Assembly: GCA_903851135.1 (NCBI GenBank)
Contig: CAINNK010000028.1
Coordinates: 1-42,144 of the forward strand
Origin: an uncultured bacterium
GTDB lineage: Bacteria; Patescibacteriota; Minisyncoccia; Moranbacterales; GWC2-37-73
Reading direction: 5' to 3'
DNA: 42,144 bases
The notes under the pieces were generated by a model, which saw only the letters and a list, made by a program, of their open reading frames with translations, was not told the DNA's origin and ran no database searches. Below are positions 6,746 to 7,685 of this stretch, in pieces (positions within the stretch are counted from its first letter, which is position 1; every line of letters begins with the position of its first letter). The position numbers and the translations under genes are program-made.

Positions 6746-7507
6746 TTATCCAATTAGAGAAACAATTTTCAAAAATTCATTTGGAATCAAACTTTCGCGG
6801 CCAACCAGCACACCGTCCATTTGCGGTTCGACGCAAACCTGAGCAACATTCTTGGAATTAACTGAACCGCCATAAAGAATTCTCACTTTCTCAGCCGCAG
6901 AGGCTCCATACTTTTCGACCAATAATTTCCTGATGGTTATCTTCACTTCCAAAATTTCGTCGCTAGTCGGGATTGCGTCGCTGCCAACAGCCCAAATCGG
7001 TTCATAGGCAAAAACAATCTCAGTTATTTTAGAAATCGGAACGTCACTCAGGCTTTGATTGAGTTGCGCCATGATTACTTCAGCCGTTTCCCCGTTTTTT
7101 CTTTCAGTTTGTGATTCACCAATGCAAACAATTGGAATTAGATTGTCTTTAAGCGCTGATTTTATCTTCGCATTGATGTCTTCGTTGCTCTCTGCAAAAT
7201 ATTTTCGTCTCTCACTGTGACCAATGATGGCATATTTACAACCGATATTTTTCACCATAAGCGAAGAAATTTCACCCGTAAAAGACCCTCGCTCTTCCCA
7301 AAAAATATTCTGAGCGCCAACAAAGATGTTTTCCTGCGCTAGTGTTTCGACAAATTTTTCCAAATGGACGGCCGGCGGACAAAGTACAATTTCAGCAGAA
7401 TTTTTGGCTTTTTTTTCAAAATCTCGCTGAAAGGATTCCAAATAGCGATCACGCTCAGCGACGGTTAGAAGGTTCATCTTAAGATTTCCCACGACTAATT
7501 TTTTCAT
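6746..7507 (-). CDS. tpiA: Triose-phosphate isomerase
   Basis: Interconverts dihydroxyacetone phosphate and glyceraldehyde 3-phosphate in glycolysis. Catalytic marks are all present: GNLKMN with Lys10, IIGHSERR (catalytic His), AYEPIWAVG (catalytic Glu, then the flexible loop) and YGGSV phosphate site. 253 residues, normal length. The start ATG at 7505-7507 is fixed by Lys10. Remarkably, the first 11 codons are repeated twice in the 178 bp upstream in exact 89-nt steps, so expression may be controlled through those units. fba follows downstream. Confidence 0.97.
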   Translation of the reverse strand: MKKLVVGNLKMNLLTVAERDRYLESFQRDFEKKAKNSAEIVLCPPAVHLEKFVETLAQENIFVGAQNIFWEERGSFTGEISSLMVKNIGCKYAIIGHSERRKYFAESNEDINAKIKSALKDNLIPIVCIGESQTERKNGETAEVIMAQLNQSLSDVPISKITEIVFAYEPIWAVGSDAIPTSDEILEVKITIRKLLVEKYGASAAEKVRILYGGSVNSKNVAQVCVEPQMDGVLVGRESLIPNEFLKIVSLIG

Positions 7508-7596
7508 ATATTTCTAAGTTAATTGGAAAGGTTTCAACCAAAGGTTGATCAGCCTCTGGCTGACATTTTTAAATTCCCAACAATTATTTTTTGCAT
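7508..7596 (-). repeat. 89-nt unit B: tpiA-start mimic plus twin hairpins
   Basis: It begins with an ATG at 7594-7596 and reads MQKIIVGNLKMSARG then TGA, copying the tpiA N-terminus with silent or conservative changes (for example LK as TTA AAA against CTT AAG). Next come two perfect adjacent stem-loops: TCAGCC/GGCTGA (7549-7563) and TCAACC/GGTTGA (7534-7548). A 26-nt A+T-rich linker then ends exactly at the real tpiA ATG. The micro-ORF stop lies in the first hairpin. It could be a translated leader or an old tandem-duplication product. Confidence 0.85.
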
Positions 7597-7685
7597 ATTA
7601 TTATAAATATTTTAGGAGAGTTTCGGCCCGAGGCCGATCAGCCTTGGGCTGACATCTTAAGATTTCCAACAACTAGTTTTGACAT
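7597..7685 (-). repeat. 89-nt unit A: second tpiA-start mimic plus twin hairpins
   Basis: Same architecture as unit B and exactly the same length. The ATG at 7683-7685 opens MSKLVVGNLKMSAQG then TGA. Hairpin one is TCAGCC/GGCTGA (7638-7652). Hairpin two is TCGGCC/GGCCGA (7623-7637), where unit B has TCAACC/GGTTGA, so both sides of the stem changed together. A 26-nt linker follows. The unit starts 4 nt after the stop of the MazG-like gene, so it would be reached by translating ribosomes. Confidence 0.85.

Follow-up and report, generated by a model that had tools for sequence, protein, structure and literature searches.

Tandem tpiA gene starts in a candidate-phyla bacterium as probable derivatives of a homing-like element that rebuilds its target

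The window, that is the whole 42,144-nt stretch of DNA that was analysed, belongs to a genome of 1.28 Mb (G000) and carries tpiA, the gene for triosephosphate isomerase, on the minus strand. Three minus-strand ATGs (7685, 7596 and 7507) are spaced by 89 + 89 nt, which confirms the exact period described in an earlier, sequence-only reading of this DNA. That reading had also stated that the two upstream units, A and B, copy the tpiA N-terminus, and indeed they begin with MSKLVVGNLKM and MQKIIVGNLKM compared with MKKLVVGNLKM in the gene. Start A differs from the tpiA start at 5/33 nt and start B at 9/33 nt, and the complete units translate as MSKLVVGNLKMSAQG and MQKIIVGNLKMSARG, each followed by a stop codon. 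Both starts run into a 30-nt twin hairpin with two 6-bp stems and triloops. The stems are perfect, as had been reported, and folding of the two elements as DNA gave this structure with z of about -4.1. The twin-hairpin pattern was found twice in the window versus 0.01 times expected from shuffled sequences. On the 3' side of each hairpin, tpiA codons 12-13 resume (AAAATG, hairpin, AACCTT in unit B; AAGATG AACCTT in the gene), and therefore the hairpin interrupts a truncated tpiA start rather than marking the end of a designed mini-ORF. No ORF was present within the 89-nt units, and Rfam 15 gave no relevant family at gathering score for the tpiA upstream region and the twin-hairpin loci. The features are listed in Table 1.

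Table 1. Features of the tpiA locus, with positions in the window
Feature	Position	Strand	Basis
tpiA (triosephosphate isomerase), present working start; codons 1-11 at 7475-7507	6746..7507	-	ORF and Pfam TIM, 279.7 bits
Displaced tpiA start A (MSKLVVGNLKM), outermost copy, in native-start position	7653..7685	-	3-4/33 nt from G003 and G005 starts
Twin hairpin A (TCAGCCCAAGGCTGATCGGCCTCGGGCCGA)	7623..7652	-	pattern scan and DNA fold
Unit A target-codon remnant (AAACTCTCC) and AT-rich linker	7597..7622	-	comparison with gene codons 12-13
Displaced tpiA start B (MQKIIVGNLKM)	7564..7596	-	1/33 nt from G004 start
Twin hairpin B (TCAGCCAGAGGCTGATCAACCTTTGGTTGA)	7534..7563	-	pattern scan and DNA fold; identical in G002
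Unit B target-codon remnant (AACCTTTCC) and AT-rich linker, abutting tpiA ATG	7508..7533	-	sequence reading
Putative insert 1, 89 nt: twin hairpin A, linker and replacement start B	7564..7652	-	boundaries by analogy with filled/empty tRNA-Ser site
Putative insert 2, 89 nt: twin hairpin B, linker and present tpiA codons 1-11	7475..7563	-	boundaries by analogy with filled/empty tRNA-Ser site

The twin hairpin (TCNNCCNNNGGNNGATCNNCCNNNGGNNGA) is a dispersed element. G000 contains 14 exact and 7 near-exact copies, and 60/131 genomes of the order carry it, while a reversed control pattern gave zero matches. An old duplication around a dispersed double-hairpin element, which had been mentioned earlier as the alternative to a functional unit, comes close to the actual state. 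Among 149 distinct copies, 93% of the stem halves are complementary although the two middle base pairs vary (CG, AG, AC, CC, GG, AT and AA), and the flanks are symmetric (T-N^N-A), with T at -2 and A at +2 in 85%. The compensatory stem change between units A and B, which had been taken to argue for function, is thus real but belongs to the whole dispersed family, and, because this family is a DNA palindrome, it provides no evidence for an RNA specific to tpiA. When the twin hairpin was excised from displaced gene copies, the native sequence was regained without duplication in nearly all cases (ATG^AAC, TTG^GAA, GCT^CAG and TTTT^CAT).

Several further copies were recorded in other contexts. In uvrC of G000 (L009 1501-1530; G000:C8:14340), a twin hairpin lies in frame in a variable linker and is absent from the five congeners. 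An intergenic repeat of ~150 nt, with four copies in G000 (L011, L012, L019 and L021), contains a twin hairpin flanked by acttttgtaacttttc and aaatctcccgacacgtgc. At the tmRNA locus (L020 1082-1560), the twin hairpin lies 3' of the gene, and a degraded, short repeat of the tmRNA 3' end follows beyond it. In G000 and G002 (L022 1339-1621 and L096 910-1090), tRNA-Thr(CGT) has a second copy of its 3' half downstream, separated from the gene by twin hairpins, and the copy in G002 has an extra palindromic insertion of ~20 nt. These 3'-end copies, along with one of tRNA-Arg (L252), look like att-type duplications and, being less clear, were left out of the main evidence. Tandem repeats in L251 and L181 were rejected, since they are ordinary domain or gene repeats.

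To place the tpiA units among relatives, we compared the gene in 18 members of the family. Three of them have one unit each, compared with two in G000: that of G002 is nearly identical to unit B, that of G001 is decayed, and G014 belongs to another genus. The 89-nt spacing and most of the linker are common to three congeners. No unit was seen in the other 15 relatives, which include the congeners G003 and G004, with an incomplete view in G005, where the contig ends 159 nt upstream of tpiA, and in G016, where tpiA is cut at its 5' end. A search for the tpiA start joined to the twin hairpin gave G000, G002 and G014 in the order, G000 as the sole convincing case in the class (384 genomes, few of them family members), and G014, G002 and eight matches in unrelated phyla across 84,980 species genomes; those eight were put down to chance without one-by-one inspection. 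In G005, the closest relative, the 3' part of a group II intron (L030 64-138; RF00029, 41.5 bits) ends ~20 nt before the tpiA start; the intron is incomplete as the contig ends there.

The origin of the starts was traced by comparing the first 33 nt of tpiA with the gene body. In G014, the body has 85-86% identity to G015 and G012, and the displaced start differs from the G015 start at only 2/33 nt. The working start of G014 differs from that of G015 at 9/33 and is nearest to that of G013 (3/33), a genome with a body identity of 71%. Similarly, copy B of G000 and the tpiA start of G004 are 1/33 nt apart while the bodies are only 72% identical. Such close starts on diverged bodies imply that starts were swapped between lineages. 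Wherever relatives permit the test, these comparisons identify the upstream copy as the native start and the working start as one derived from a foreign lineage. The synonymous differences between the starts, which had been regarded as a sign of function, are therefore attributable to lineage exchange between real gene starts and not to selection on micro-ORFs.

The same architecture was present at other genes. A partial start split by the twin hairpin lies directly 5' of an intact gene at atpF (G054 and G051), at tpiA of G118 from another family, and at tRNA-Lys, tRNA-Arg (three genes) and tRNA-Ile in several genomes. The atpF locus of G054 has two tandem units whose twin hairpins are identical and 89 nt apart. 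Its displaced atpF start has a GC content of 0.44 and differs at 4/36 nt from the start of G058, while the working start has a GC content of 0.31 and differs at 10/36, compared with a GC content of 0.49 in the gene body. Copies spanning the insertion point were found at 9/152 twin-hairpin loci versus 2/831 control positions (Fisher p about 2e-6); the p value is approximate, since the count of nine is our own tally across two scans and the tpiA loci of G000 and G002 share ancestry. One of the control positions (L055 670) is itself another displaced tRNA start, split by single hairpins. The view that these are displaced starts split by a dispersed element is well supported, and we hold it with high confidence.

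These distributions bear directly on the conserved tpiA leader of the sequence-only reading, in which mini-ORFs and hairpins would steer tpiA translation through reinitiation or attenuation. Consistent with such a leader, three congeners have the spacing and most of the linker in common, the displaced copies retain a start codon where the native one lies and terminate just ahead of the next ATG, and the RNA of both tpiA units folds strongly (z = -5.1). However, the unit was unseen in 15/18 relatives and is decayed in G001, and the covariation extends to the entire twin-hairpin family. Furthermore, the design recurs at atpF and tRNA genes, each with its own start sequence, and at tRNA genes a peptide is impossible. 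Upstream regions of relatives without units, and units before unrelated genes, were both outcomes which that reading itself had regarded as speaking against function. A regulatory leader at tpiA is thus very unlikely.

Full-size inserts were found once longer spacers were allowed. In these, a displaced tRNA 5' part cut by the twin hairpin is followed by a few target bases, a GIY-YIG gene of ~82 aa, whose assignment is backed by Pfam matches, and the intact tRNA, usually separated from the GIY-YIG gene by no more than a few tens of bases. Such inserts are located at tRNA-Glu (G010, and contig C23 of G000 with a twin-hairpin variant), tRNA-Ser(TGA) (G002, G003 and G004), tRNA-Asn (G120 and G088) and tRNA-Val (G054). 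The same order, including the GIY-YIG gene, is found with other palindromes at tRNA-Cys of G000 and tRNA-Ser(GGA) of G002. The tRNA-Ser locus provides a pair of a filled site in G003 and an empty site in G000. Excising 319 nt from G003 yields the G000 sequence with no gap; the segment comprises the twin hairpin, GAGTGGTT and following bases, the GIY-YIG gene, TAAATT and GGAAGCATGGCC, and its removal joins GCATGGCC to GAGTGGG. The twin hairpin, the ORF and the replacement half were thus gained together as one segment. In this pair, the segment entered a copy that had been displaced earlier, suggesting that recognition depends on sequence and not on whether the gene works. Moreover, the GIY-YIG genes of G003 and G002 share 96.8% identity compared with 74% for the tpiA bodies, which points to movement between species. 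As in homing elements, a GIY-YIG ORF is found at sister loci, the empty site is precise and the spread exceeds host divergence.

Other GIY-YIG genes were noticed in the vicinity of tRNAs and repeats. The tRNA-Gln of G005:C29 (L290 and L301) lies between two GIY-YIG genes, with a palindrome-broken pseudo-tRNA-Gln upstream. At L289 (G000:C25), 24-nt direct repeats border a GIY-YIG gene, and an inverted copy of them lies just 5' of the next gene, whose start reads like dnaG.

Based on the tRNA loci, we consider it likely on balance that the two tpiA units arose in succession, as derivatives without an ORF, from a homing-like element of candidate-phyla bacteria that rebuilds its target, and their derivation from GIY-YIG target-rebuilding elements is, by analogy, probable. 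Units A and B would be former tpiA 5' ends, shoved upstream by small inserts between codons 11 and 12. Each insert would consist of the twin hairpin, a few target bases and a replacement copy of the left half of the target, so that tpiA would stay intact but acquire a leader stretch and codons 1-11 of new origin. The full-size form, as seen at the tRNA genes, carries a small GIY-YIG nuclease gene between the twin hairpin and the replacement copy, and the tpiA units are read as versions lacking this ORF because their boundaries match those of the 319-nt tRNA-Ser insert; the GIY-YIG link at tpiA is what we infer from this match. Spread most likely occurred by homing-like recombination between species, in which the insert and a foreign start would be copied into an uninterrupted allele. 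Such transfer would account for the native upstream copy, the foreign working start, the exact position and the stacking of units. The nuclease would presumably cleave the target, and the twin hairpin may be its substrate or, more speculatively, may split the recognition site in the displaced copy. Alternatively, the putative GIY-YIG role could lie in cutting the twin hairpin, or the gene could be a mere passenger. Several observations count against the full model. Neither tpiA nor atpF was accompanied by a GIY-YIG gene in any of the genomes examined, and most twin hairpins are solitary. The proximity of twin hairpins to GIY-YIG genes (7/146 versus 8/791, p = 0.004) is only moderately significant, with three orthologous loci among the seven and controls taken from the same loci. 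In addition, the rebuilt tRNA is often identical to the displaced part, so the target sequence is restored and a sequence-specific nuclease should cut it again.

A neutral history in two steps would dispense with the nuclease at tpiA. Here the start would be duplicated first, by slippage or by recombination with foreign DNA, and an independent miniature palindrome, the twin hairpin, would land later in the redundant copy, where alone it is harmless; the GIY-YIG genes would be unrelated to tpiA. Displaced copies of tRNA-Ala (L241), tRNA-Arg (L055) and tRNA-Cys (L247) do carry other palindromes, G000 has one displaced tRNA-Ser copy without a twin hairpin, and native 5' UTRs resemble the linkers (G002 ATTAAACTAGAAATAT and G004 ATTAAATTCAGAAATTT). 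Nevertheless, three lineages have the twin hairpin at an identical base of tpiA, as do the two atpF units for their gene, and the one-segment acquisition in the G003/G000 pair is at odds with independent arrivals. We therefore regard two separate neutral steps as rather unlikely.

The twin hairpin could instead be a REP/BIME-like sequence moved by a RAYT (Y1) transposase, with the foreign start brought in by ordinary recombination. Y1_Tnp genes occur in all six congeners. Like REP/BIME sequences, which are short dispersed palindromes that form head-to-head pairs, lack target duplication and are sometimes intragenic (PMC2817692, PMC3733652), the twin hairpin inserts without target duplication and resembles a head-to-head REP dimer (PMC3733652). 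In contrast with the REP/RAYT system, it lacks a GTAG or CGTC tag, its flanks are symmetric (T-N^N-A), and it is linked to GIY-YIG genes and displaced starts, the former being left unexplained by a transposase. At 16 Y1 loci of the genus, we found no twin hairpin and one isolated single hairpin, and the palindromes there are of other sequence. Mobilization by a RAYT thus seems highly improbable. The RAYT-like Y1 genes themselves (L081, L084, L082 and L088) contain or adjoin twin palindromes of a different kind (e.g., CTTAGGGACTAAGTCCCCAATTGGGGACTTAGTCCCTAAG), the sequence of which is gene-specific.

For the target-rebuilding element that we favour, the mobile-ORF gene hybrid of fungal mitochondria is the closest analogue. 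In Allomyces atp6 and in Glomus atp6, atp9, cox2 and nad3, a mobile element with an endonuclease gene brings in a foreign 3' end, which takes the place of the native one; the latter is pushed aside and differs largely at synonymous sites (PMC3630166). A foreign working end with a native displaced end was likewise found at tpiA of G014 and atpF of G054, while an endonuclease ORF between both ends of the same gene was found only at tRNA loci and not at tpiA or atpF. In the mitochondrial hybrids, it is the 3' end that is replaced, and the endonuclease ORF (LAGLIDADG or GIY-YIG) is a full one (PMC3630166). The present cases are bacterial, concern mostly 5' ends and include tRNA genes as targets; the displaced copy contains a twin hairpin, and tpiA lacks an ORF of this kind. 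T4-like phages also have free-standing GIY-YIG homing endonucleases, whose small genes lie outside introns, adjoin tRNA genes and spread by recombination; SegB of T4, in the tRNA region, is an example (PMC2988022). T4 Seg enzymes, however, cut hundreds or thousands of bases from their own gene, do not rebuild the target and have no twin hairpin described. We know of no gene-start replacement by Rickettsia palindromic elements. These can be in frame in a coding gene, as the twin hairpin is in uvrC, but are longer or of other sequence (PMC3733652). Insertion sequences in rRNA genes of candidate-phyla bacteria are homing-type elements of the same bacterial group, and a few have GIY-YIG ORFs, which the authors put outside homing spread; unlike the present elements, they are often introns and mostly encode LAGLIDADG proteins (PMC11270868). 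A GIY-YIG protein is among the genes predicted as donations from Patescibacteria to other bacteria (PMC12455944). In the literature covered, mostly outside subscription journals, there was no account of a target-rebuilding insertion at bacterial tRNA or gene starts.

Taken all together, the loci may represent a class of target-rebuilding elements, a generalization for which we see the case as evenly poised. Its members would pair a tiny GIY-YIG nuclease with a DNA end formed by the twin hairpin, insert at conserved sites in essential genes (tRNAs, tpiA and atpF), rebuild the gene with a foreign 5' end, exchange starts between species and leave cast-off starts stacked as tandem units. If true, many very small GIY-YIG proteins in these uncultivated bacteria would gain a role, gene hybrids of the mitochondrial kind would be known from bacteria and from 5' ends as well, and there would be a route by which single-copy essential genes gain foreign first codons. 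Such codons can mislead gene-start calls and fine-scale phylogenies. A further caution is that gene starts which lie in tandem, differ synonymously and bear hairpins do not in themselves point to a translational leader.
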